From Phyllobacteriaceae bacterium UBA1940 (GTDB lineage: Bacteria; Pseudomonadota; Alphaproteobacteria; Rhizobiales; Rhizobiaceae), in assembly GCA_002336975.1 (NCBI GenBank), contig DDFA01000105.1, positions 1-11,519 of the forward strand: a DNA stretch of 11,519 bases. Reading direction: 5' to 3'. Shown piece after piece: positions 40 to 11,412 of this stretch. A program made the position numbers and the translations under genes. Each line of letters opens with the position of its first letter. Within the stretch, counting starts at the first letter, position 1. Below the pieces are notes generated by a model that saw only the letters and a program-made list of their open reading frames with translations, made no database searches and had not been told where the DNA came from.

Positions 40-2097
40 CTAGCGCAACACCGCGGCAATGTTGCCGCCGTCGACGGTCGTCACGTCTCCGGTCGTGCGG
101 TCCGCCAGCGCATGGTGCAGAAACGCCTGCGCCACATGATCGGCGGTCACTTCCAGCCCCAGCAGATTGCCGCTCATATAGTCGCTTTGGGACAGACCGC
201 GCGCCTGCGAACGGCTGGCGATCATCTCGTCGGTCAGAAGGCCTGACCGGATGCGGTCGGCATTGACCGCGTTGGACCGGACGCCGATCGAACCATATTC
301 CAGCGCATATTGCCGCGACAGGAACAGGGTCGCGGCCTTCGGCAGCCCATAGGCGCCGAATTTCGGCCCCGGATTGACCGCCTGTTTCGACGTGTTGAAC
401 AACAGGACCCCGCCAGTGCCCTGCTGCTTGAACAGCCGCACCGCGTTTTGCGCCACGTCCTGATGCGAAAAGAAGTTGAGTTCAAAACTCTTGCGCAGCA
501 GCGCGTCATCGATTTCGCCGATGCCGCCTTCCCAGGCGGCGCCTGCGTTGGACACGACAATGTCGACGCCGCCAAAAACGTCGACCGCCTTGTCAAACGC
601 CGCGCGCACATCGGCCGGCCTGGTGACGTCCGCGCCGACGCCGATCGAATTGTTGCCAGCGGCCTTCGCCACGGCCGCAGCCCTGTCGCCGTCGAGATCG
701 ACGACCACGACATGCGCGCCATTGGCGGCAAACAGTTTTGCCGTCGCCGCCCCGATTGCGCCAGCCCCACCGGTGATCAGGGCCACCTGGCCGGTCAAGG
801 GTTTCGGCTTGTTGCCCGCAAGTTTTGCCTGCTCCAGCGACCAGTATTCCAGCTCAAACAGGTCCGACTTGGCCAGCGGACGGAAGTCGCCGATGGCCTC
901 GGCGCCCGACACGGCCTCAATCCACATCTCGCCGACATCAGACGCGATCCTGGCGTCCTTCAACGTTCGGCCGTGGCCGAACATGCCCAGCCCCGGCACG
1001 AGCGAGAGGCGAGGCATCGGATCGAGCATGGTGCGCTCCACATCGTCGCGCGCATCGTTGTCGGTGAAATAGCGTTTGTAGTCCCCGACATAGTCGCCGA
1101 TCGCCTTTTCCACCGCCGCACGATAGCCAGCGGCGTCACCCGCCACCGGGGCCGGCAGCACCACGGGTCCGGTCTTGATGCGGATCGACAGGTCCGGCGT
1201 CGAAACGCCCTGCCCGGCCAGGCGCGCGAGGTCCGCGCGGGCAAGAAAATCGAGGATTTTTGGCGAGGTGCGGAAGTCCGAGATCATGCGCTCGACGCGG
1301 CCCTCATCGTAACGGGCGGCGACCGCGCCGCGCAGCATCGGCGCGATCTCGGCGGGCGTCGCCAGATTTGCCGGCAGCGACGCACGGGCAGCCGCAGGTT
1401 TGCTGTTCCTCGCGACATAGTCCTCCGCCGCCGTCACCCAATGGATCATCCGGTCGTATGCGTCTTTCGCCGTTTCGGCGAATGTGAAGATGCCGTGCTT
1501 GTCGAGGATCAGCCCCTCGACCGAGGTATCCTGGTCAAAGATTTCGGCGGCGGCCTTTGCGAGGTCGAAACCCGGCTTGATGTAGGGCACATAGCCCATT
1601 TTCGGCCCGAAAACTTTTGCGATCAGTTCTCGCGATCCATCGCCCTGATCGACGATCGCAAGCACTGCGGTCGAGTGGGTGTGGTCGACAAATTTGTGCG
1701 GCAGGAAGGCATGCAACAGCGTTTCGACCGACGGGTTCGGCGATCCCGGATCGATCAGATTGGCGCGCTGGAGCGCCACCATGTCTTCGTCCGACAATTT
1801 GTCCAGCGCCCGGGCCTTTAGCAGCGGCTTCAATTTCACGGCCGGCAGACCCGCCGGCTCGATCACCGCCATGTCCCAACCCGATCCCTTGACGCACAGC
1901 ACGTCCCACTGGTCGCCGACCAGATCGGTCGCGGTCGACTTGACCGACGTATTGCCGCCGCCATGCAGCACCAGGCGCGGATCGCCGCCCAGCAGACGCG
2001 TCGTATAGACCCTCAACGCCAGGTCGCGGTCGACGCCCTTGGCGGCGTACGCTTTCACCATGGCTTCGGCGTCGGTCTGGTTCCAGAGATTTTTCAT
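40..2097 (-). CDS. Bifunctional class II aldolase / short-chain dehydrogenase
   Basis: 685 residues with two domains. The N-terminal class II (zinc) aldolase half (about 1-400) has the phosphate-binding GGGNTSVK at 46-53, a likely catalytic acid E125 (PSVETLLH), and zinc ligands in DHTH (138-141) and KHG (H201). The C-terminal Rossmann dehydrogenase half (about 433-685) has TGGAGAIG at 442-449, D467 after beta-2 (favouring NAD over NADP), NAG at 517-519, and catalytic S570, Y583 and K587 (YGLPK). The architecture and length match the rhizobial rhamnulose-1-phosphate aldolase/lactaldehyde dehydrogenase fusion (RhaD-like, about 700 aa). Here the neighbours are a methylthioribose kinase and isomerase, not rhamnose genes. 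The inferred substrate is therefore methylthioribulose-1-phosphate or 5-deoxyribulose-1-phosphate, giving DHAP plus methylthioacetaldehyde or acetaldehyde, which the dehydrogenase half would convert. It lies 24 bases after the regulator and is probably cotranscribed with it. The ribosome binding site is weak. No gene symbol is given because orthology to RhaD is not certain. Confidence 0.93.
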   Translation of the reverse strand: MKNLWNQTDAEAMVKAYAAKGVDRDLALRVYTTRLLGGDPRLVLHGGGNTSVKSTATDLVGDQWDVLCVKGSGWDMAVIEPAGLPAVKLKPLLKARALDKLSDEDMVALQRANLIDPGSPNPSVETLLHAFLPHKFVDHTHSTAVLAIVDQGDGSRELIAKVFGPKMGYVPYIKPGFDLAKAAAEIFDQDTSVEGLILDKHGIFTFAETAKDAYDRMIHWVTAAEDYVARNSKPAAARASLPANLATPAEIAPMLRGAVAARYDEGRVERMISDFRTSPKILDFLARADLARLAGQGVSTPDLSIRIKTGPVVLPAPVAGDAAGYRAAVEKAIGDYVGDYKRYFTDNDARDDVERTMLDPMPRLSLVPGLGMFGHGRTLKDARIASDVGEMWIEAVSGAEAIGDFRPLAKSDLFELEYWSLEQAKLAGNKPKPLTGQVALITGGAGAIGAATAKLFAANGAHVVVVDLDGDRAAAVAKAAGNNSIGVGADVTRPADVRAAFDKAVDVFGGVDIVVSNAGAAWEGGIGEIDDALLRKSFELNFFSHQDVAQNAVRLFKQQGTGGVLLFNTSKQAVNPGPKFGAYGLPKAATLFLSRQYALEYGSIGVRSNAVNADRIRSGLLTDEMIASRSQARGLSQSDYMSGNLLGLEVTADHVAQAFLHHALADRTTGDVTTVDGGNIAAVLR

Positions 2098-2121
2098 GTC
2101 GGGTGTCCGTATCTGTTTGGA

Positions 2122-3075
2122 TCAGGCGGGCGTGGCCGCCGGGGTATCGATCAAGGCTTCTGCCATGGCGCGCGAAAGCACGAGGTGGGAGGCAAAACGC
2201 CCTGCCAGAGCGGCGCGCAGCGGCTCGAGCTTTGCCGCCTCCTGCACCACCATCAGGCGCTGCGGGATCGCCCTGAAATCATCAAGGTCGGCGGAAATGC
2301 AGCGGCGGTTGTAGTCGCAGTCGAGCCAGGCCCCGGTCGCGTCGATCATCTGTCCGGCGATAACGCCCGCCGCGCCCTGCCGCCTCAGCGCGCGCAGTTC
2401 GGCCGCCGTCACCGCGCCGCACTTCACGACGTGGGCGTCCTCGTCGGCGACGCCGACCGAAAACAGCGCAATGTCGCATTCGCCGACGCCGGCCAGCTGT
2501 TCGCGGATGACGGGCTCGGCCCGCAGCGCCGAGGCCAGCGCCTCGGTCGACAGGATGAGCGGCGCGTAGAAATTCAGGCCCTTGGCGTTGAAGCGGCGCG
2601 CGATCTCCATCGTGCACTGGTCCGGGCGATAGGAATAGGGCGCGCCCAGATTGCCGCAAAGCTGCACCACCGTCACATCCTTCAGGTCTGCAAAGGCCAT
2701 CGCATCGGCGATGGCGTAGACGGTGCGCCCCCAGGCGACGCCGACCCGCTGGCCGCTCGTCACCATTGACAGGAAGACGCTGGCCCCAAGCGTCGGAACC
2801 TCGGCCTCGGGGTCGGGATAGGCGTTGCCGTCGGCAATCCAGACGCCTTCCAGGCCAAAACGATCTTCGAGCTGGCGCGCCAGCATTTCCGACGCGAACA
2901 GTTCGGTCGAGGTTGCTATGGTGACGATGCCGTTCTCGCGCGCCTTGCGCAGATACATGGCGACCGATGCGCGCGAGATGTTCAGCCGCCTGGCGACCTC
3001 ATCCTGGCGCAGGCCATGGGTGTAGTAGAGCCAGGCAGCCTTGTGAACGATCTGGTCGCCGGGACGCAGCGGCAT
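2122..3075 (-). CDS. SorC-family sugar-responsive transcriptional regulator
   Basis: 317 residues. A helix-turn-helix lies at about 22-46 (LRQDEVARRLNISRASVAMYL), followed by a SorC-type sugar-phosphate-binding C-terminal domain with family-typical stretches GVAWGRTVYAIADAM (112-126) and VVQLCGNLGAPYS (136-148). Members of this family usually act as tetramers and respond to a phosphorylated sugar, often the aldolase substrate. Context makes a 5-substituted ribulose-1-phosphate or ribose-1-phosphate the likely effector; this is inference. The start is supported by GAGG (3083-3086, minus strand), 7 bases upstream of ATG. Its promoter overlaps sequence shared with the divergent promoter region at 6841-6850, so autoregulation and control of the whole locus are plausible. 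Whether it represses or activates cannot be read from the sequence. Confidence 0.9.
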   Translation of the reverse strand: MPLRPGDQIVHKAAWLYYTHGLRQDEVARRLNISRASVAMYLRKARENGIVTIATSTELFASEMLARQLEDRFGLEGVWIADGNAYPDPEAEVPTLGASVFLSMVTSGQRVGVAWGRTVYAIADAMAFADLKDVTVVQLCGNLGAPYSYRPDQCTMEIARRFNAKGLNFYAPLILSTEALASALRAEPVIREQLAGVGECDIALFSVGVADEDAHVVKCGAVTAAELRALRRQGAAGVIAGQMIDATGAWLDCDYNRRCISADLDDFRAIPQRLMVVQEAAKLEPLRAALAGRFASHLVLSRAMAEALIDTPAATPA

Positions 3076-3093
3076 CGAGAATCCTCAATTTTC

Positions 3094-3124
3094 TGACATT
3101 AGTCAGCATGACTGGAAAATGTCA
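3094..3124. promoter_or_regulatory. Candidate operator in the SorC-regulator promoter
   Basis: TGACATT (3094-3100) and its exact inverse AATGTCA (3118-3124) face each other 24 bases apart centre to centre. Between them lies a second small dyad, AGTCA-GCA-TGACT (3101-3113), whose centre is offset by about two bases. The right half-site belongs to the 10-mer ATTGACATTT (minus strand, 3117-3126) that recurs at 6841-6850. A regulator binding site is the simplest explanation; the binding protein is inferred. Confidence 0.5.
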
Positions 3125-3125
3125 A
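3096..3125 (-). promoter_or_regulatory. Putative sigma-70 promoter of the regulator-aldolase unit
   Basis: On the minus strand, TTGACA (3120-3125) is followed after 18 bases by TAATGT (3096-3101). The -35 box is a perfect consensus; the -10 is weak. Transcription would begin near 3089, just ahead of the regulator's ribosome binding site. The terminator immediately upstream makes a separate promoter here necessary or at least useful. The same 18-base spacing recurs in both putative promoters at 6807-6871. Confidence 0.45.
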
Positions 3126-3162
3126 TTGATCGCGGTGGCAATCCGAAGGCTTCGCCGGCAGG

Positions 3163-3188
3163 AAAACGGGGCGGCCGAAGCCGCCCCG
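3163..3188 (-). terminator. Intrinsic terminator after the binding-protein gene
   Basis: A 9-bp perfect GC-rich stem (3167-3175 with 3180-3188) has a TTCG tetraloop as read on the minus strand, closed by C and G. It is followed by TTTT (3163-3166). It lies 15 bases after the stop codon of the periplasmic binding protein. It would end or attenuate the ABC-transporter transcript before the regulator gene. Confidence 0.85.
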
Positions 3189-3203
3189 CCAAGCCGGAAA
3201 AGA

Positions 3204-4247
3204 CTACTTGTTCGGATTTGGCATCCAGGCCGGCATGGCGACATTGGCATGGGCGAACTGGGGCATCTTGGCCGACAGGTCTTCCATGTTCTTGATGTCG
3301 TTGTCGTTCAGGTCCTTCTGGGTGATCAGGGTCGGCGGCACGATCACCTGCTTGCCTGGATCTTCGCCGGCCAGAAGCTGGGCGAGCGCGCGCACCGAGA
3401 CCTGGCCGACCACGGCCGGATTGGTCGCGGCGGTCGCCACCCAGGCGCTGCCGGGCTCGCGCATCGCCGAAATGTCGGCGGTGGAAATGTCGGCCGAATA
3501 GATTTTTACCGACGACGACAGCCCGGCCTCGTCCACCGCGATCTTCACGCCCTTGGCGAACTCGTCATAAGGCGCAAACATCACCTGAATGTCCGGATTG
3601 GCGGTCACGACCGAACGCGCCTGGTTGGCGACCGAGTTGGCGATCGGGTTGTCCAGCGTCCCGAACATCGCCACTTCGTTGATGCCAGGATATTTCGCCT
3701 TGAATTCCTTCCAGGTCTCGTCGCGGCGATCGAGCGGCGCGATGCCTGCGACATAGACGTAGCCGGCCTTCCAGCTTTCGCCATTGTCCTTCACCGCCTG
3801 CTCGAGCGCCAGACGCGCCAGGTCGCGGTCGGACTGTTCGATCTGCGGGATCTTGTCATTCTCGACATTGACGTCGAAGGCGACAACCTTGATGCCTGCG
3901 TCGACCGCGCGCTTGGCGGCTTCCTTCATCGATTCCGTCAGGCCATGCTGGATGATGATGCCATTGACGCCGAGCGCAATCGCCTGATCGACCATGTCGG
4001 CCTGCAGCGCCGCGTCCTGGCGGCTGTCGAGCACCTGCAACTGTACGCCCAGCGCCTTGGCCTGCGCCTCGACGCCGGCCAGATAGGCCTGGAAGAAGTC
4101 GCCGGTCGACAGGTAACGCACCAGCGCAATCTTGACGTCGCCCGGCTTGTCGAACGGGGCCGGCTTGTCCTGCGCAATGGCCGGCAGCGCAATCAGCGCC
4201 GAGGTTGCCAGCGCCAGGCCCGAAAATACTCTGCGAGTAATCCTCAT
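3204..4247 (-). CDS. Periplasmic sugar-binding protein of an ABC importer
   Basis: 347 residues from the chosen start. A signal peptide is evident: basic MRITRR, a hydrophobic core at about 8-22, and a likely cleavage after AIA at 23-25. The mature part is a type 1 (ribose/galactose-like, Peripla_BP_4) fold, with KIALVRYLSTGDFFQAYLAG near the N-terminus (39-58) and alternating Rossmann-like segments such as ALGVNGIIIQHG (91-102) and VVAFDVNVEN (121-130). It delivers the sugar to the permease and ATPase encoded just upstream in the same operon. The ligand is not readable from sequence; the flanking mtnK and mtnA suggest methylthioribose or 5-deoxyribose. The frame stays open upstream to 4334, but the signal peptide and GGAG nine bases before ATG fix the start at 4247. 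Confidence 0.92.
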   Translation of the reverse strand: MRITRRVFSGLALATSALIALPAIAQDKPAPFDKPGDVKIALVRYLSTGDFFQAYLAGVEAQAKALGVQLQVLDSRQDAALQADMVDQAIALGVNGIIIQHGLTESMKEAAKRAVDAGIKVVAFDVNVENDKIPQIEQSDRDLARLALEQAVKDNGESWKAGYVYVAGIAPLDRRDETWKEFKAKYPGINEVAMFGTLDNPIANSVANQARSVVTANPDIQVMFAPYDEFAKGVKIAVDEAGLSSSVKIYSADISTADISAMREPGSAWVATAATNPAVVGQVSVRALAQLLAGEDPGKQVIVPPTLITQKDLNDNDIKNMEDLSAKMPQFAHANVAMPAWMPNPNK

Positions 4248-4256
4248 GATGCTCTT

Positions 4257-4260
4257 CTCC
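4257..4260 (-). promoter_or_regulatory. Ribosome binding site deciding the binding-protein start
   Basis: GGAG on the minus strand lies nine bases before the ATG at 4245-4247. It supports the start that begins the signal peptide over the in-frame upstream alternatives, which would put about 29 unrelated residues in front of the basic signal-peptide start and would overlap the permease gene. Confidence 0.6.
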
Positions 4261-4284
4261 ATGTTTCCGCAGCCCGTTACGGTG

Positions 4285-5274
4285 CTAGCGCCTGCCCTGG
4301 TTTGAAAGGGCAAAGGTGAAAATGAGCGCGACAACGAGCACCGCGCCCTTGACGAAATCCTGGGTGTAGTAAGGCACGTTCATCATGGTGAGCCCCTGCA
4401 GCAGCACACCGACAAACAGCGCCCCGATTGCCGTGCCAAACGCATTCGGCTTGGCGGCGCCCAGCACCGCGTAGCCGATCAGCGCGGCGGCAACCGCATC
4501 CAGCAGCAGGTTATTGCCTGAGGCGATGTCGCCGCGTCCAAGCCTGGCGGCGAGCAAAATCCCGCCAATCGAGGCAAAGATTCCGGAAATGACATAGGCC
4601 CAGATCTTGTATGCCTTGACCGGCGCGCCAGCCAGTTCGGCGGCGCGGGCATTCGACCCGACGGCATACATCATCCGGCCGAAGCGGGTGTATTCCAGGA
4701 AGAACCAGATCAGCACCGCCAGCACGATCAGCACAACCACCGACACCGGCACGAGGTCCGGCAACACAAAATCGAAGCGGTGGCGGCCGAGCGCCAGGAA
4801 GGCGGGCGAAAACGTGCCGACCGCAGTCGATCCGTCAGGCAAGGTCATGCCGGCGGCGATCGACCGGCCCTCGGTCGGAATGCGCTGCAAGCCGACCAGC
4901 AGGAACATCATGCCAAGGGTCGCCAGCAAGTCCGGCACGCGCATGTAGACAATGATCAAGCCGTTCACCAGGCCGACCAGCGCGCCGATTGCGAGACAGA
5001 CGATCACCGCGACAATGGCGTTCTGCTCCAGCACGACCATCACATAGGCGGCGGCCATCATCGCGCTGGTGGCGACCGAACCGATCGACAGGTCAAACCC
5101 GCCGACGACCAGCGTGGCCGTGACGCCCAACGCCAGAATGCCGGTGATCGCGACCGACTGGAAAATGAACACGGCGGCCTGCGGCGTGGCAAAGCCGCTG
5201 GTCATCACCGAGAAAAACACCACCAGCCCGGCCAGGAGTGCGAGAAAGCCATATCGGATCAGCGTATCGGCCAT
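4285..5274 (-). CDS. Sugar ABC transporter permease (RbsC-like)
   Basis: 329 residues, strongly hydrophobic, with about eight to ten membrane segments (for example 7-26, 34-56, 85-109, 113-130, 175-193, 223-243, 258-272 and 308-323). Family motifs are present: GGFDLSIGS (58-66) in the ribose-permease style, and AVGSNARAAELAGAPV (204-219), which matches the conserved cytoplasmic coupling loop of RbsC/FrcC proteins contacting the ATPase. A homodimer in the inner membrane is expected for the family. The start codon overlaps the ATPase stop by one base (TGATG), implying translational coupling; the binding-protein gene begins 37 bases after its stop. Substrate specificity is inferred only from the locus. 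Confidence 0.93.
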   Translation of the reverse strand: MADTLIRYGFLALLAGLVVFFSVMTSGFATPQAAVFIFQSVAITGILALGVTATLVVGGFDLSIGSVATSAMMAAAYVMVVLEQNAIVAVIVCLAIGALVGLVNGLIIVYMRVPDLLATLGMMFLLVGLQRIPTEGRSIAAGMTLPDGSTAVGTFSPAFLALGRHRFDFVLPDLVPVSVVVLIVLAVLIWFFLEYTRFGRMMYAVGSNARAAELAGAPVKAYKIWAYVISGIFASIGGILLAARLGRGDIASGNNLLLDAVAAALIGYAVLGAAKPNAFGTAIGALFVGVLLQGLTMMNVPYYTQDFVKGAVLVVALIFTFALSNQGRR

Positions 5275-6779
5275 CAGGCAGCGCCTTTCATTGCGCCGCC
5301 CGCCACGTCGGCAAGCAGTCGGTCCATGTCGAGATTCTTGTTGCGGTGTTCGCCGACTATCGTGTGCTCGGACATCACAAATATCCGGTCGGCCGTCTCC
5401 AGCACTTCGTCGAGTTCGGTCAGGAACAGCAATGTCGCCCGGCCGGCCGCGCTGGCGCGCAGCTTGGCGGCGATGTCGCGCCTTGCGGAGATGTCGACGC
5501 CTTGAAACGGCTCATCCAAGATGAAGAAACGCGACGGCTGCGACATCCAGCGCGCCACCATCACCTTCTGCTGATTGCCGCCCGACAAGGTATTCATCAT
5601 GTCGGACTCGCTGCGGCAGACAATCGACAGATTGTCGATCTGGACGCGCGCCGCCTGGCGCTCCGCGCCATTGCGCATCACGCCGGCGCTGGAGAAGCGT
5701 TGCAGGAAGGGCAGCGTCACATTGCGATAGAGATTGAAGTCGCTGACAATGCCGCTCTCGGCGCGATCTTTCGCCACCAGAAACGCGCCGCGCTCGATCG
5801 CGTTGTGCGGCTTGACCGGCGCATATGGCCGGCCGTCGAGAACCATCGATCCCGACACCGGTTGCCTCAGGCCAAACAGCGTTTCGGCCAGGCGGGTCTT
5901 CCCGACGCCGACAAGTCCGGTGACCGCCACCACTTCGCCGTCGCGCAGCGACAGCGAAAACGGCTCGCTGCCGGGCTTCAGGCGCATGTCTATTGCTTCG
6001 AAAACGGGCTTGCCGCCGTCCTTGACGTCAATCGTGGCCGCCAGCGTCGAACGGCCAAGCATGGCCTCGACCGCGCCTTCATAGTCAAGCGGCTCGCCTT
6101 CGAACATGCCGGCGATTCGCCCGTCGCGCAGCGACACGATGCGGTCCGCGATACGGCGGATGTCCGACATGCGGTGCGAGATATAGAGGATCGCGACGCC
6201 ATGCGCGCGCAGCCGTTCGATCAATGCAAACAGCCGCTCGGCTTCAGCATTGGAAAGAGACGAGGTCGGCTCGTCGAGGATCATCACCCTGGGCTCGTGC
6301 GACATGGCGCGCGCTATGCTGACCATCTGGCGATCGGCCAGCGACAGCGAGGAAATGTCGGCGCGCAGATCAACGTCGAGCCCAAGCCGTCCAGCCACAT
6401 CTGCCGCTTTCCGGCGAACACGCCGCGGATTTACAAACAGGCGCGCGCCACGGCCCGACAGCCGGTCAAGCGTGAGATTGCTGGCAACATCCAGCGAAGC
6501 GACGACGCCGTCATTGATGTTCTGGTGCACCGTCACCACGCCGGCGCGCATGGCTTCCGCCGGACTTGACGGCGCAAACGGCTGACCGAGCAAGGTCATA
6601 GACCCGGAATTGGGCTCATGCACGCCGCTCATGATCTTGACCAGGGTTGATTTGCCGGCGCCGTTGGCGCCCATCAAGACAGTCACCTGACCCGCAAACA
6701 GATCGAGCGTTACGCCGTCCAGCACCCGGTACGGGCCAAACGACTTCCCCAGTCCGGCGATGCGGAACATGGCTGCCAT
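5274..6779 (-). CDS. Sugar ABC transporter ATP-binding protein (RbsA-like, two ABC domains)
   Basis: 501 residues, the usual size for the double-cassette ATPases of ribose-type importers. The first cassette has Walker A GANGAGKST (37-45), Q-loop Q86, a divergent signature LSLADRQ (144-150), Walker B VMILDEP (165-171) and switch H202. The second has a degenerate P-loop GLVGVGKT (288-295), a canonical LSGGNQQK (397-404) and Walker B FFILDEP (417-423). This unequal pair is typical of RbsA/MglA-type proteins. It energises uptake through the permease and binding protein encoded downstream. It is the first gene of the transporter operon and divergent from mtnK. GGAGGAG (6790-6796, minus strand) lies ten bases before the ATG and supports this start over an ATG three codons in. 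Confidence 0.94.
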   Translation of the reverse strand: MAAMFRIAGLGKSFGPYRVLDGVTLDLFAGQVTVLMGANGAGKSTLVKIMSGVHEPNSGSMTLLGQPFAPSSPAEAMRAGVVTVHQNINDGVVASLDVASNLTLDRLSGRGARLFVNPRRVRRKAADVAGRLGLDVDLRADISSLSLADRQMVSIARAMSHEPRVMILDEPTSSLSNAEAERLFALIERLRAHGVAILYISHRMSDIRRIADRIVSLRDGRIAGMFEGEPLDYEGAVEAMLGRSTLAATIDVKDGGKPVFEAIDMRLKPGSEPFSLSLRDGEVVAVTGLVGVGKTRLAETLFGLRQPVSGSMVLDGRPYAPVKPHNAIERGAFLVAKDRAESGIVSDFNLYRNVTLPFLQRFSSAGVMRNGAERQAARVQIDNLSIVCRSESDMMNTLSGGNQQKVMVARWMSQPSRFFILDEPFQGVDISARRDIAAKLRASAAGRATLLFLTELDEVLETADRIFVMSEHTIVGEHRNKNLDMDRLLADVAGGAMKGAA

Positions 6780-6806
6780 GACTGGCGAACTCCTCCATTG
6801 GGCATC

Positions 6807-6836
6807 AAGCTAAGGCTCAATCTGCGCAATTGTCAA
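6807..6836 (-). promoter_or_regulatory. Putative promoter of the ABC-transporter operon
   Basis: On the minus strand, TTGACA (6831-6836) is followed after 18 bases by TAGCTT (6807-6812). The -35 is a perfect consensus and forms the left arm of the inverted repeat at 6831-6847. Transcription would start near 6800, leaving a leader of about 20 bases that contains the GGAGGAG ribosome binding site. Confidence 0.45.
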
Positions 6837-6854
6837 CTCGATTGACATTTGACA
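6828..6854. promoter_or_regulatory. Candidate shared operator between divergent operons
   Basis: TGTCAA (6831-6836) and TTGACA (6842-6847) form a perfect inverted repeat around CTCGA. Outer AA (6828-6829) and TT (6849-6850) extend the symmetry across one mismatch. A further TTGACA at 6849-6854 makes a tandem direct repeat with the right arm. The 10-mer ATTGACATTT (6841-6850) is shared with the SorC-regulator promoter. A bound SorC-family protein would touch both -35 boxes. Confidence 0.55.
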
Positions 6855-6871
6855 GCGCACTGGACTAGCGT
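6842..6871 (+). promoter_or_regulatory. Putative promoter of mtnK-mtnA
   Basis: TTGACA (6842-6847) is followed after 18 bases by TAGCGT (6866-6871). The -35 is a perfect consensus and the -10 weak, as often seen in regulated alphaproteobacterial promoters. Transcription would start near 6878, about 40 bases ahead of mtnK. Confidence 0.45.
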
Positions 6872-6918
6872 CTCGTGACTGGTGATGATGGCGCCGGTTG
6901 ACGCATCGGGAGCAATGA

Positions 6919-8190
6919 ATGGCTGTCTCTGCCTACAAACCCTTGAATGTGGAGACGCTCGGCGCCCGGCTCGGCTCTGTTCCGGCCTTGCGCGACACTC
7001 TGGGCGATCCGGCCGGCTGGCGGGTGCGCGAGGTCGGCGACGGCAATCTCAATCTGGTCTTCATTGTCGAGAGCGATGCCGGCGGCCTGATCGTCAAACA
7101 GGCCCTGCCCTATGTGCGCCTGGTCGGCGAAAGCTGGCCGCTGCCGCTCAAGCGCAGCTTCTTCGAATATCATGCGCTGAGGCGTCAGGCCGCCCGCGAT
7201 CCCGGCCGGGTGCCCGAGGTGGTGCATTTTGACGAAAGCCAGGCGCTGATCGTCATGGAGTTCCTGACGCCACACGTCATCTTGCGCCATGCCCTGATCG
7301 AGGGCCGGATGCCTCCAAAAACCGCCACGGACCTTGGCCTGTTCATGGCGCGCACCCTGTTTCGCGGTTCGGACCTGTCAATGGCCGCCCGCGAGCGCAA
7401 GGCCGACCTGGCGCTGTTCGCCGACAATGTCGAACTGTGCGACATCACCGAAAACCTGGTGTTCACCGACCCCTATTTCGCTGCCGAACTCAATCGCCAC
7501 ACCTCGCCCCAGCTTGACGGGCTTGTGGCCCAGATACGCGCCGACACGGCGCTCAAGATGGAGGCACAGCGTTTAAAGCACGTGTTCGCCACCAGCGCCG
7601 AAACACTTGTGCATGGCGACCTTCACTCGGGCTCGATCATGGTCACAGACGACGATACCCGCGTCATCGACCCCGAATTTGCGTTCTATGGGCCGATGGC
7701 GTTTGACGTGGGCATGCTGTTCGCCAATTTCTGGATGAGCTTTTTTTCGCAACGCGGGCACGAACAAGCAGGCAGCCGGTCAAAACAACGCAACTGGCTG
7801 CTCGGCGTCATTTCCGGGACATGGTCCACCTTCCAGGCAGAATTCGAACGGCTTTGGATGACCGAGCGAAACGGCATGCTCTATGCCCGCAGCCTGTTCG
7901 AGGACCAGGGCGACGATGCGGGCGCCGCAAAAAGCCTGGCGCGGCTGATGACCCAGCTCGAACAGGATCTGTTCGGCTTTGCCGGGGTTGAAATCCACCG
8001 GCGCATCCTCGGGCTGGCGCACAATGCCGACTTCGAGACCATCGAGAACGAGGATTTGCGCGCCGGTTGTGAAACCAATGCGCTGAACTTCGGCTCCGAA
8101 ATCATCCGGCGCGCCAAGAATGGCCTGACCATCGCGGCGGCAAATGCTCTGGCGCGAGACATCGAAGCGGGCGGAGGTGCGGGCCGATGA
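6919..8190 (+). CDS. mtnK: S-methyl-5-thioribose kinase
   Basis: 423 residues of the aminoglycoside-phosphotransferase/choline-kinase fold. The nucleotide loop is DGNLNLVF (41-48) with the following lysine K60. The catalytic loop is [10 protein letters not shown] (232-241; D234 as base). The metal-binding DPE (251-253) is the DxE form that characterises MtnK instead of the DFG of other kinases. The family reaction phosphorylates the C1 hydroxyl of methylthioribose with ATP, in the cytoplasm. It overlaps mtnA by four bases (ATGA), so the two are translationally coupled. The start is supported by GGGAG (6908-6912), six bases before ATG. In this locus the kinase would act on sugar brought in by the divergent importer. 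5-Deoxyribose is a possible alternative substrate, since some MtnK-family members accept it. The kinase call is firm; the physiological substrate is less so. Confidence 0.93.
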
Positions 8191-9278
8191 AAGTTTCCAA
8201 CCGCCACTACCGCACCATCTGGCCGGCCGAAGACGGACGATCTGTCGAGATCATCGACCAGCGCTGGCTACCGCATGAATTCCGTGTCGTCAGGCTGGCG
8301 ACGACGGATGAGGTCGCCATCGCAATCCGCGACATGTGGGTGCGCGGCGCACCGCTGATTGGCGTCACCGCCGCCTACGGCGTCGCCATCGCCATGCTCG
8401 AAGACCCGTCCGACGAGGGCCTCGACCGGACCTGGGGCCAGCTTCACGAGACGCGCCCGACCGCGATCAACCTGCGCTGGGCGCTTGACGACATGCGCGC
8501 ACTTCTGCGTCCGTTGCCGCCGAGCGGCCGCGCTGAAGCCGCCTTTGCAAGGGCGGCTGAAATCGCCGACGAGGATGTCGAACTGAACCGCGGCATCGGA
8601 CGGCATGGCCTGTCCCTCATCCGACAGATCGCGGCCTCAAAACCTGCCGGTGAGCCGGTGCGCATCCTCACTCATTGCAATGCCGGCTGGCTGGCGACCG
8701 TCGACTACGGCACGGCGACGGCGCCGATCTACATGGCGATGGAAGAAGGCATTCCGGTGCATGTCTATGTGGATGAAACCCGGCCGCGCAATCAGGGCGC
8801 CCAACTCACCGCCTGGGAGATGGTCGGCGAAGGCGTACCGCATACGCTGGTTGTCGACAATGCCGGCGGCCACCTGATGCAGCACGGTATGGTCGACATG
8901 GTGATCGTCGGCACCGACCGCACGACCCGCAACGGTGATGTTTGCAACAAGATCGGCACCTATCTGAAAGCGCTTGCCGCCCGCGACAACAGCGTGCCGT
9001 TTTATGTCTCGCTGCCCTCGCCCACCATCGACTGGACGGTTGGCGACGGGGTCGCCGAAATCCCGATCGAGGAACGCTCGGGCGACGAGGTCTCGCTGGT
9101 GTGGGGCCGCACCGGAGACGGAAAGGTCGTCCAGGTTCGTATCTCGCCCGACGCGACGGAAGCCGCCAATCCCGCGTTCGATGTGACCCCGGCGCGACTG
9201 ATCACCGGCCTGATCACCGAACGAGGGATCGCCGAGGCGTCCGAAAGCGGCTTGCGCGGGCTGTTCCCGGAAGCGTGA
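8187..9278 (+). CDS. mtnA: S-methyl-5-thioribose-1-phosphate isomerase
   Basis: 363 residues, the normal length for the eIF2B-like MtnA family. RGAPLIG (53-59) is the phosphate-site segment. The catalytic cysteine lies in [11 protein letters not shown] (C164) and the catalytic aspartate in [19 protein letters not shown] (D244). The family converts methylthioribose-1-phosphate to methylthioribulose-1-phosphate, the next step after MtnK. The aspartate motif reads [10 protein letters not shown] where many MtnA proteins have GADRIAANGD, so this is a divergent subgroup, possibly with altered substrate preference. Its product would feed the class II aldolase at the left of the window. The C-terminus ([18 protein letters not shown]) looks complete, although relaxase-derived sequence begins within a few bases of the stop. 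Confidence 0.93.
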
Positions 9279-9279
9279 C

Positions 9280-9693
9280 GCCCAATGGCTCGAACCTGGC
9301 GGCCAGCAGGTGCGCGAGGCGATGGACCAGCGCCTCGAGCATCAAATCGAACAGGGCGACGCCACGCGAGCGCGGAACGGCCGCATCTTCTATCGGCGCA
9401 GCCTTCTCGCCACCCTGCGCGAGCGCGAGGTTGCCCGCGTCGGTGCGGAGATGACCGAGAGCAAAGGGCTGCCGTTCCGCGCCGCCACGGACGGCGAGAA
9501 CGTCAGCGGCAAGTTCACCGGCACCGTGCAGCTATCGAGCGGCAAGTTCGCCGTGGTCGAGCAATCCCATGAATTTACCTTAGTCCCTTGGCGGCCGGTC
9601 ATCGACCGCCAGCTCGGCCGCGAGGTCATGGACGTCGTGCACGGCGGATCGGTGTCGTGGCAGTTGGGCCGTCAGAGGGGATTGGGGCTGTAA
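9280..9693 (+). pseudogene. C-terminal remnant of a DUF3363-type conjugative relaxase
   Basis: This frame resembles the C-terminal part of VirD2-like relaxase/mobilisation nuclease proteins carrying DUF3363. The family-typical end is present as LVPWRP, then QLGREV, VSWQLG and the terminal GRQRGLGL. Family-like sequence starts at about 9280 (AQWLEPGG), right against the mtnA stop. From the first usable start (GTG 9310) 127 residues remain, with LVPWRP at 91-96 and GRQRGLGL at 120-127. Full proteins are several hundred residues long and carry the nicking domain with its catalytic tyrosine or histidines N-terminally; all of that is missing. The fragment cannot be a working relaxase and marks the edge of a former conjugative or mobilisable element. 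GC content resembles the left block, not the right. The family call is from remembered motifs and is less sure than the truncation itself. Confidence 0.7.
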
Positions 9694-9761
9694 GATTAGA
9701 ACGCATTGGAGCCCTGCGGGATGGGTAACGGCGCACTACCAGCGTTTCCTCGCGCCCTAGC

Positions 9762-9796
9762 CTGTGTCACATTGCTGCATATGCAGGTGAACACAG
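9762..9796. repeat. Dyad symmetry across the Crp/Fnr start codon
   Basis: The 12-bp perfect palindrome CTGCATATGCAG (9775-9786) contains the proposed ATG (9781-9783). It is flanked by outer inverted arms CTGTGTCAC (9762-9770) and GTGAACACAG (9787-9796), which match apart from one extra A. It could be an autoregulatory operator or an mRNA hairpin over the start codon. No Shine-Dalgarno sequence is visible upstream. Confidence 0.5.
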
Positions 9797-10341
9797 TCCT
9801 GAAGAATCACTTTCTAGAATTAGGCAAAGACCTCCATGTCGATGCCAATAGGTCATTGTTACGTGCGGGCGAGGTGGCCAGATACGTTTACCTTATCCAA
9901 TCAGGTGCCGTGCGTCTCTGTGTGCGCAATGCCGAAGGCGGAGAAACCAGCGTTCAGTTCTTCTTTGAGGGCGACATGGTTAGCTCGCTGGAAAGCATGG
10001 TGAGTGGTTGCCCTAGCGGGCTCGATCTAATCACCATGGAAGCGTGCCAGTTGCGTGTGTTGGACCGCAAAATAGTGCAGTCCAAGATTCAGCCCCATGC
10101 AAACCTGGTATCTGAACTGCTGGCGCTTACGCAACAGCGCCTTGTTGACTACATCAATCTTTACACCAGTGCTATCTCCCAAACGCCGACCCAGCGTTAC
10201 CAGACCATGCTGGCAACGCAGCCGGACAAGCTCGCACGTATTCCGCTGCACATTCTGGCGGGCTATCTGGGCGTAACCCCGGTACATTTGAGCCGTATTC
10301 GGCGAAATCTGAAATCCGCTACTGGGTCGCAGACGCTCTAG
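9781..10341 (+). CDS. Crp/Fnr-family transcriptional regulator
   Basis: 186 residues from the chosen ATG. A cyclic-nucleotide-binding-like beta barrel (about 18-100; LRAGEVARYVYLIQSGAVRLCVRN at 27-50) is followed by a dimerisation helix (about 105-130) and a helix-turn-helix at about 153-176 (HILAGYLGVTPVHLSRIRRNL). The phosphate-binding cassette is not the cAMP type: FFEGDMVSSLESMVSG (61-76) lacks the conserved GE-A-R pattern. There is no N-terminal cysteine cluster for an iron-sulfur centre. The effector is therefore unknown. The frame is open further upstream (TTG 9706, ATG 9721), but family similarity begins at 9781. GC and codon use are unlike the left block. It precedes a membrane-anchored dehydrogenase on the same strand and may control it or itself. 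Confidence 0.85.
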   Translation: MQVNTVLKNHFLELGKDLHVDANRSLLRAGEVARYVYLIQSGAVRLCVRNAEGGETSVQFFFEGDMVSSLESMVSGCPSGLDLITMEACQLRVLDRKIVQSKIQPHANLVSELLALTQQRLVDYINLYTSAISQTPTQRYQTMLATQPDKLARIPLHILAGYLGVTPVHLSRIRRNLKSATGSQTL

Positions 10342-10476
10342 ACATTTGTAAATGACAGCTTTGCATCGACCACGCACCATCGGTCGATCATCGCTTCTAT
10401 TGGCTCGGGTTGAGCGCATCACCTCGATGGGAATGGAGTGACAGCATAGCAACTTCCATATTCTAGAGGAACTTCG
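10342..10476 (+). other. 135-base spacer before the dehydrogenase
   Basis: No gene is visible. It holds an inverted repeat ATCGACC (10365-10371) / GGTCGAT (10382-10388), a small dyad CATTT-GT-AAATG (10343-10354), and the 7-mer TGACAGC twice (10353-10359 and 10439-10445). These could be regulator sites or a weak hairpin, but there is no T-run to call a terminator and no convincing -35/-10 pair. Confidence 0.35.
10465..10470 (+). promoter_or_regulatory. Ribosome binding site of the dehydrogenase gene
   Basis: AGAGGA ends six bases before the ATG at 10477, a good match and spacing that supports this start codon. Confidence 0.6.
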
Positions 10477-11412
10477 ATGGTGATTGATACCTCTGTTGCA
10501 CTACAAATAGGTGGTGCAGCACTTTTTGTCTGGGCGCTGGTCAATATGGCCCGCTGGATTTGGCTCTATTTTTGGCTACCGCAGCGTTCGATTGGAGAGC
10601 GCTTGGCCAAGCGTTTTGGCCCCGGTAGCTGGGCACTCATTACAGGCGCTAGCGACGGGTTGGGTAAAGCATTCGCACAAGAGTTGGCGTGCTATGGCTT
10701 CAACTTGATTCTGGTATCACGTACGCAGTCCAAGCTCGATCTACTAAAGGATGAAATTCAAGCGCAGGGCGTTCAAGTTCGTACTGTGGCAGCAGACTTG
10801 TCAAACACTTCCCCCCAAACCTACGAATCCCTAGCTATTGCCGCACAGGATGTAGATTTGTCGGTGCTCATCAATTGCGTAGGTACTACGGTGCATCGGC
10901 GCTATTGCGATGTAGCAGCCAAGACCCTGCGTCATCTGCTGGCCGTCAACGTCAGCACCACGGCCATCGTGACGCACACATTGCTTCCACTACTACTGCG
11001 CCATGCTACATCCACGGGGCGTCGTGCCGCCGTGCTTAATGTGGGCTCCATCGTCGGCCGATTCTACTGGCCCGGCACTCAGCTCTACGGAGCGTGCAAG
11101 GCATTTATCGATCACCTGAGCATTCCATTGGCCTATGAGTACCGCGATCAGTTGGATGTGCTGTCCTTCCAACCCACCGTCATGGCCACGGCAATGGCCG
11201 CTGGTACTGAACCAGGCGCTATCACCATCTCCCCAGAACGGGCTGCACATGCGGCACTATCCCACTTGGGGCATACGCTGACCTCCCACGGCCATTGGCG
11301 TCACGGCCTGCTCGCTGCGTTCTTGGTGATATTGCCATGCAGGATACGCAATGCACTTTTTCTGAAGGAGGCACTGGCGATGGGGGAGGTTGAGTTGGCG
11401 AATGGTAAGTAA
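10477..11412 (+). CDS. Membrane-anchored short-chain dehydrogenase (17-beta-HSD / 3-ketoacyl-CoA reductase-like)
   Basis: 311 residues. A hydrophobic N-terminal helix (about 9-34) precedes a classical dehydrogenase fold. Cofactor motif TGASDGLG lies at 56-63, and R82 after beta-2 favours NADP(H). N133-G136 (NCVG) replaces the usual NNAG. Catalytic residues are N158, S191, Y204 and K208 (YGACK). A second hydrophobic stretch (276-288) lies near the C-terminus. The N-terminal anchor, a TGASDG cofactor loop and the NxVG motif recall the HSD17B12/very-long-chain 3-oxoacyl-CoA reductase group, which reduce or oxidise steroid or long-chain acyl carbonyls at a membrane. The actual substrate cannot be told. 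It follows the Crp/Fnr gene by 135 bases and shares its lower GC. It is not related in function to the sugar locus as far as can be seen. Confidence 0.88.
   Translation: MVIDTSVALQIGGAALFVWALVNMARWIWLYFWLPQRSIGERLAKRFGPGSWALITGASDGLGKAFAQELACYGFNLILVSRTQSKLDLLKDEIQAQGVQVRTVAADLSNTSPQTYESLAIAAQDVDLSVLINCVGTTVHRRYCDVAAKTLRHLLAVNVSTTAIVTHTLLPLLLRHATSTGRRAAVLNVGSIVGRFYWPGTQLYGACKAFIDHLSIPLAYEYRDQLDVLSFQPTVMATAMAAGTEPGAITISPERAAHAALSHLGHTLTSHGHWRHGLLAAFLVILPCRIRNALFLKEALAMGEVELANGK

Follow-up and report, generated by a model that had tools for sequence, protein, structure and literature searches.

The window, which is the whole of contig C10 (11519 bases) from the draft genome of the soil-type Phyllobacteriaceae bacterium UBA1940 (81% complete, 5% contaminated), carries seven intact full-length genes in its left 9.28 kb. 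Together these genes probably form an inducible import-and-cleavage module for a free 5-substituted ribose, most likely 5-methylthioribose (MTR) and its analogue 5-deoxyribose. The minus strand carries five of them, which are, in succession, a two-domain sugar ABC ATPase of the RbsA/AraG type with two Walker A motifs (5274–6779), an ABC permease of the ribose type identified by family scans (BPD_transp_2; 4285–5274), a periplasmic binding protein that is the probable MTR/5-deoxyribose receptor (3204–4247, with a likely ATG start at 4247; scanned as 3204–4259), a SorC/DeoR-type sugar-binding transcriptional regulator (2122–3075; PF04198, 172 bits, cut-off 27) and a bifunctional RhaEW-like fusion of a class II aldolase with a short-chain dehydrogenase (SDR; 40–2097), assigned from NF006192, Pfam, motifs and a tree. 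On the plus strand, mtnK, encoding a member of the S-methyl-5-thioribose kinase family (6919–8190), and mtnA (8187–9278) diverge from this set across a shared gap of 139 bases. The ATPase and permease genes overlap by one base and mtnK and mtnA by four, and from the gene spacing the whole minus-strand set in the window could be a single transcript. The original prediction had named these seven genes between positions 40 and 9278, and all of them were found, at full length, over that span.

Both plus-strand enzymes exceed the NCBIfam equivalog cut-offs in the scan of the window proteins, MtnK matching TIGR01767 with 481 bits (cut-off 275) and MtnA matching TIGR00512 with 425 bits (cut-off 279). 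Solved relatives of MtnK include 2pyw and 2olc, the latter an MTR kinase, and those of MtnA include 1t9k, a probable MTR-1-phosphate isomerase. Motifs that active enzymes should have are in place, HGDLH and IDPEF in MtnK and THCN and GTDR in MtnA; the functional roles assigned to these, as to the aldolase and SDR motifs of the fused enzyme, are those that we take to be usual for the families. From these genes we infer both a substrate and an order of reactions, in which the sugar would enter through the binding protein and the ABC transporter, MtnK would phosphorylate it at C1 and MtnA would isomerise the product to a ribulose-1-phosphate. Cleavage of this intermediate by the aldolase half of the fused enzyme would then yield dihydroxyacetone phosphate (DHAP) and (methylthio)acetaldehyde or acetaldehyde, and the SDR half would oxidise the aldehyde with NAD+ to the acid, thus pulling the unfavourable aldol cleavage forward and clearing a toxic aldehyde. 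A single kinase, DrdK, is reported to accept both MTR and 5-deoxyribose (PMC6079011). The locus had originally been read as a DHAP shunt, the logic of which holds, but the aldolase belongs to the fused, RhaEW-like kind and not to the Ald2 or DrdA type.

The nearest solved relative of the binding protein is 4ry8 from T. lettingae, titled 5-methylthioribose transporter binding protein; all ribose and rhamnose binders among the structure matches listed rank below it. The window protein is a member of the 4ry8/5ulb family. The RbsB and RhaS models score only 51 and 44 bits on it, against cut-offs of 337 and 342. Within the set of residues that we take to contact the ligand in RbsB, Asp-89, Arg-141, Asp-215, Phe-15 and Phe-16 are kept, and the window protein, like 4ry8, has other residues at the positions of Arg-90, Phe-164, Asn-190 and Gln-235 (V/L, D/T, Y/W and T/T, respectively); the comparison leaves out the row of locus L134, which is out of frame (L and G numbers designate the loci and genomes compared). 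More distant homologues (32–34% identical), from another family, adjoin mtnK and mtnA in three of five loci. In one of these loci, L162, mtnB, mtnC and a methionine aminotransferase gene are next in line, all above cut-off, a gene set that fits the mtrACB importer predicted in PMC3228920.

Several features of the binding proteins count against the proposed ligand. The identity to 4ry8 is only 38%, and 5ulb does not possess Phe-15 and Phe-16. Sister binding proteins (53–61% identical) that are unlinked to MtnK carry the same pocket changes, so the pocket letters do not discriminate and the ligand could have shifted. The sister in L119 has as neighbours a glycerol-kinase-like gene and another DeoR-like regulator, with no sulfur genes. 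Other sisters, in L118, L121 and L158 (54–61% identical), have surroundings of a sulfur type, with SfnB (above cut-off) adjoining the binding protein in L121 and L158, NtaA/DmoA-type monooxygenases and a MetQ-family gene also present in L121, and a taurine binding protein in L118; these three are possibly importers of another sulfur sugar. The SfnB and taurine-type neighbours would favour an importer that serves mainly to scavenge the sulfur of MTR, with a pathway that frees the methylthio group and for which carbon is secondary. This is quite unlikely, since no methylthio-releasing enzyme is recognised among the seven genes, the sulfur-neighboured sisters are not found with MtnK and the neighbours in L119 are of a sugar type. 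In L134 a fucose-mutarotase-like gene (10360–10803; 70 bits, below the cut-off of 141) adjoins the importer and perhaps encodes a mutarotase for the imported sugar.

The association of this importer with MtnK and MtnA is widely conserved. A scan of one genome per species was followed through the best 80 of at least 532 confirmed places, whose titles name rhizobia and their relatives, and the 73 of these 80 loci that reach at least 20 kb were used for gene-content counts. The importer, MtnK and MtnA occur together in all 73 and the complete set of seven genes in 58 (60% identity over 60% of the length). Because the 73 loci came from top matches, four proteins were in addition used as queries against 151 genomes drawn evenly from the family, a neighbourhood being defined as within 15 kb. 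All 43 binding proteins with at least 70% identity lie near MtnK, against none of the 12 below 70% (Fisher p 2e-12, with genome relatedness ignored). Thus, the gene grouping is far beyond chance, and the neighbourhood is kept well beyond this genome; a non-conserved neighbourhood, one of the two results named as refuting the original prediction, did not occur. Among the 56 MtnK matches, 43 are near a close binding protein and 37 near a fused enzyme. A fused enzyme accompanies the importer at 32 of the 43 loci (with at least 60% identity in 25 and 46–59% in 7), and its proximity to MtnK declines with identity, from 29 of 37 at 60% or more to 8 of 19 at 46–59% and none of 19 below 46%. Eight of the 37 close fused enzymes lie away from MtnK on their contig, a point against the proposed module. 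The close importer is carried by 43 of the 151 family genomes, and in a phylum-wide draw 25 of 397 genomes match the binding protein at E 1e-40. A copy of the importer with mtnK, mtnA and the regulator is present on pSymB of Sinorhizobium meliloti 1021, with no fused enzyme or RuBisCO-like protein in the 19 kb read. A 275-residue gene occurs in L057 (3747–4574) and ten other loci, mostly close to mtnA and in Mesorhizobium as far as seen. In L137 and L138 (G316 and G318, of one genus) the binding-protein genes contain one in-frame TAG.

In the fused enzyme, Pfam places the Aldolase_II domain at about residues 31–227 and the short-chain dehydrogenase at about residues 434–681; the aldolase part displays HTH, GGGNTS and KHG motifs and the SDR part a Ser...Tyr-x3-Lys arrangement. 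The protein clears NF006192 with 1100 bits (cut-off 639) but stays below the rhamnose equivalog TIGR02632 (492 bits against a cut-off of 567.75). The low-scoring matches of TIGR02632 and of the RbsB and RhaS models to window proteins are what a rhamnose or other common-sugar locus has in its favour, the fused enzyme being then a RhaD and the importer taking ribose or rhamnose, an assignment that is highly improbable. The fused enzyme of the rhamnose-linked locus L207, where RhaI and RhaS are above cut-off, reaches 1151 bits on TIGR02632, and the rhamnose-type copies read (L207–L210) are 34–38% identical to the window enzyme and so belong to the class below 46%, which is never near MtnK. Among the ten window proteins scanned, no rhamnose family was found above cut-off. 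The rhamnose locus was rejected on the sub-cut-off TIGR02632 score, the low identity to the rhamnose copies and the neighbourhood controls. A quick tree built from 35 fused enzymes sets the four rhamnose-type rows apart, on long branches, with a Shimodaira–Hasegawa-like approximate likelihood-ratio (SH-aLRT) support of 100. The label of linkage to MtnK/MtnA requires four changes on the same tree, so the linked enzymes do not form one clean clade.

The function proposed for the fused enzyme is best argued from the loci in which it is exchanged for another aldolase. Eleven importer loci have no fused enzyme nearby, and in four of these (L131, L133, L217 and L218) the strand of mtnK and mtnA also encodes a single-domain aldolase of the Ald2-like type; Ald2, the characterised DHAP-shunt aldolase, is thus swapped for the fused enzyme. 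In two of the remaining seven the fused enzyme is farther off, at about 20 kb in G121 and about 30 kb in G019, and in G086 (a short contig) and G068 it lies on a separate contig. In G028, G023 and G027, three of the 43 importer loci, no aldolase of the sought types was found nearby, which counts against the proposed reading. Conversely, in L204 (G033) mtnK, mtnA and the fused enzyme are grouped and the importer is not with them. L167 displays importer, mtnK and mtnA together with an LsrF-type thiolase (10725–12371; 505 bits, cut-off 297) and a ribulose-phosphate-epimerase-like gene; an aldolase of the sought types was not found at this locus.

The direction in which the SDR half would work is a step for which an alternative exists. 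With the same import and cleavage, the SDR half might instead act as an NADH-dependent reductase, turning the aldehyde into 2-(methylthio)ethanol or ethanol, in the service of detoxification and redox balance and not of complete carbon use. The SDR part carries VVVD at 464, that is an aspartate after its second strand, which we take usually to indicate a preference for NAD(H). SDR domains often reduce aldehydes, which counts against oxidation. Rhodopseudomonas palustris, which has Ald2, is reported to form 2-(methylthio)ethanol (PMC5893883), a second point against oxidation, and in aerobic Escherichia coli the acetaldehyde derived from 5-deoxyribose is described as building up as ethanol (PMC10986504). 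In contrast, the characterised fused relatives, the RhaEW enzymes, oxidise with NAD+: according to PMC3870299, RhaEW forms lactate and DHAP with NAD+ and no products in its absence, and the enzyme of C. aurantiacus is inactive with NADH. Reduction is rather unlikely on this balance, and oxidation to the acid remains the preferred reading. Equilibria of aldol cleavage are given as about 1e-4 (PMC6079011), and a fused oxidising domain would therefore pull the reaction.

The original prediction also held that the sugar is scavenged from outside, and the gene content of the genomes lends this indirect support. No 5'-methylthioadenosine (MTA) phosphorylase was found above the curated cut-off in the own genome and 12 same-family relatives (81% completeness of the own genome and a divergent enzyme being possible causes of a miss), and MTA nucleosidase was above cut-off in one of 21 genomes, a same-genus relative. 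MTA phosphorylase was above cut-off in six of eight order-mates. Within the 13 family genomes the importer is known only in the own genome, G030, G129 and G004. Judged by the best-scoring models, the five PNP_UDP_1 matches in the own genome comprise two purine phosphorylases, two uridine-phosphorylase-like proteins (below cut-off) and an AMP nucleosidase. MtnK would thus act with no known inner source of free MTR, which points to import. The MtnD acireductone dioxygenase (ARD) was not found in the own genome, an absence that is not certain at 81% completeness; the same family search gave matches in five of 14 controls, in two of them above cut-off. Classical methionine salvage was rejected on the missing MtnD. 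No Rfam family matched the window at gathering cut-offs, so a SAM riboswitch or other known RNA was ruled out at that level.

Between the divergent ATPase and mtnK genes lies a palindrome, CAAnTGTCAA-N5-TTGACAnTTG (6827–6851, with the exact core at 6831–6847), which is a putative operator and at which the SorC regulator probably acts. The palindrome occurs in all 76 named loci that contain both the ATPase and mtnK, in 75 exactly and in one with a single mismatch, and its outer arms are invariant or nearly so by column conservation. Across 1.6 Mb only three further matches with at most one mismatch were found, and none in 20 shuffled loci; one of the three lies in L098, where the contig ends before mtnK. 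Among 22 further loci, which in part come from the same genomes, 11 have the palindrome. It is present in all nine with a regulator at least 58% identical and absent from all nine with a regulator of 35–40% identity; L168 is an exception, with the palindrome beside a regulator of 34% identity, and of three loci in which no regulator was detected one has the palindrome and two do not. The presence of the palindrome thus tracks regulator similarity, which supports the pairing, although kinship confounds the comparison. The 11 further loci that lack the palindrome argue the other way, as do the identity of its half-sites with a -35 hexamer and the fact that, in the named loci, no palindrome precedes the fused-enzyme/SorC unit when this unit is on the other strand. 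A consensus promoter scan of 6700–7000 found nothing. The regulator is 29% identical to E. coli MtnR/YjhU over 310 residues (E 4e-48). The proposed E. coli MtnR site at about position 4214 of L213 (CAAAT...ATTTG) is similar to the outer palindrome arms, though spaced differently.

In 30 of the 73 loci two transketolase halves and a RuBisCO-like protein are found, always as a trio. The trio follows directly after mtnA on the same strand in 28 (for example L060, 1814–4871, and L170, 1832–4889); the exceptions are L037, in which it lies in broken pieces on the mtnA strand, and L097, in which it is on the opposite strand, past the binding protein. Counting pieces of fused enzymes, 40 loci have only the fused enzyme, 19 have both, 11 have only the trio and three have neither. 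In the 151-genome sample each of the 11 RuBisCO-like matches (E up to 1e-60) has MtnK, the importer and a fused enzyme within 15 kb, and the ten genes are annotated together on a Shinella plasmid. The own genome and its two same-genus relatives in the sample gave no RuBisCO-like protein with this query, which matches 11 of the 151 genomes; the RuBisCO-like isomerase expected for an MTA-isoprenoid shunt was thus not found in the own genome. The nearest solved relative of the RuBisCO-like protein is 3qfw, titled RuBisCO-like protein from R. palustris; the RLP2 (RuBisCO-like protein 2) of that organism is 2qyg, and 3qfw is by inference its RLP1. Modelling of the RuBisCO-like protein gave a structure of poor quality (predicted local distance difference test, pLDDT, of 60), and the fold search served only for the titles of sequence-matched chains. 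The C-terminal transketolase half matches 1-deoxyxylulose-5-phosphate synthase with 162 bits, below the cut-off of 466. R. palustris RLP1 is described as a methylthioribulose-1-phosphate isomerase that runs parallel to Ald2 (PMC5893883). One published paper cites an Ochrobactrum anthropi RuBisCO-like protein in a hamamelose pathway.

We tentatively propose, as a possible though somewhat doubtful extension, that in these relatives the importer, mtnK and mtnA feed a second, non-aldolase cleavage, a branch that is missing from the window itself. The RuBisCO-like protein would shift the carbonyl and convert 5-deoxyribulose-1-phosphate or methylthioribulose-1-phosphate to 1-deoxyxylulose-5-phosphate or 1-methylthioxylulose-5-phosphate. 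The split transketolase would then cut the C2–C3 bond, releasing glyceraldehyde-3-phosphate and transferring the C2 unit. If true, this would explain what the RuBisCO-like proteins beside the module do and would describe a transketolase that acts on 1-deoxy sugars.

To the right of mtnA the window changes in character. The G+C content drops from about 0.63 to about 0.55, and a C-terminal relaxase fragment (DUF3363) is followed by a CRP-type regulator and an SDR (9310–9693 and 9706–11412). This right end (9310–11412) is either a mobile junction or a misjoined contig end.

Parts of this module have published counterparts. The drdK-drdI-drdA cluster for 5-deoxyribose disposal in Bacillus thuringiensis (Beaudoin 2018, PMC6079011) displays the same succession of kinase, isomerase and aldol cleavage to DHAP and acetaldehyde, and four of the clusters drawn there also have putative sugar transporter genes. 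It possesses a single-domain FucA-type aldolase, in contrast to the fused aldolase/dehydrogenase and SorC regulator found here. The E. coli DHAP shunt mtnK-mtnA-ald2 (PMC10986504, PMC12632272; L213) likewise has a transporter and a regulator (MtnR) alongside, its MtnK, MtnA and regulator being 47%, 62% and 29% identical to the window proteins, but as described its permease is of the GRP family where the window has an ABC importer, its Ald2 is separate where the window has the fused enzyme, and it is under CRP control. The mtrACB system of enterobacteria and Bacillus cereus (PMC3228920; 4ry8, 5ulb) is a ribose-type ABC importer linked to mtnK/mtnA, with a binding protein of the same family, although there it accompanies full methionine salvage under MetJ or S-box control and here an aldolase. 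RhaEW (PMC3870299) is the same fusion of class II aldolase and SDR and its orthologues are reported as always lying in rha loci, whereas the window enzyme belongs to another subfamily, which is linked to MtnK/MtnA, with no link to rhamnose genes. Thus, kinase-isomerase-aldolase clusters, the E. coli shunt with its regulator and a predicted MTR importer are already published. In the parts of the literature searched, neither the pairing of importer and fused enzyme nor an association of the importer with the transketolase/RuBisCO-like trio was seen.

The chemistry of S-adenosylmethionine generates MTR and 5-deoxyribose as widespread waste products; excretion of MTR is reported for E. coli (PMC3228920). 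The conserved dedicated importer, together with a fused enzyme that would pull the cleavage, suggests that many rhizobia and their relatives use this waste sugar as an outside food. The copy on pSymB makes the ligand claim directly testable in the model strain S. meliloti 1021, and the link of the trio to the module offers a concrete substrate hypothesis for the RuBisCO-like protein. The final steps are interchangeable among relatives that carry the same gene set.

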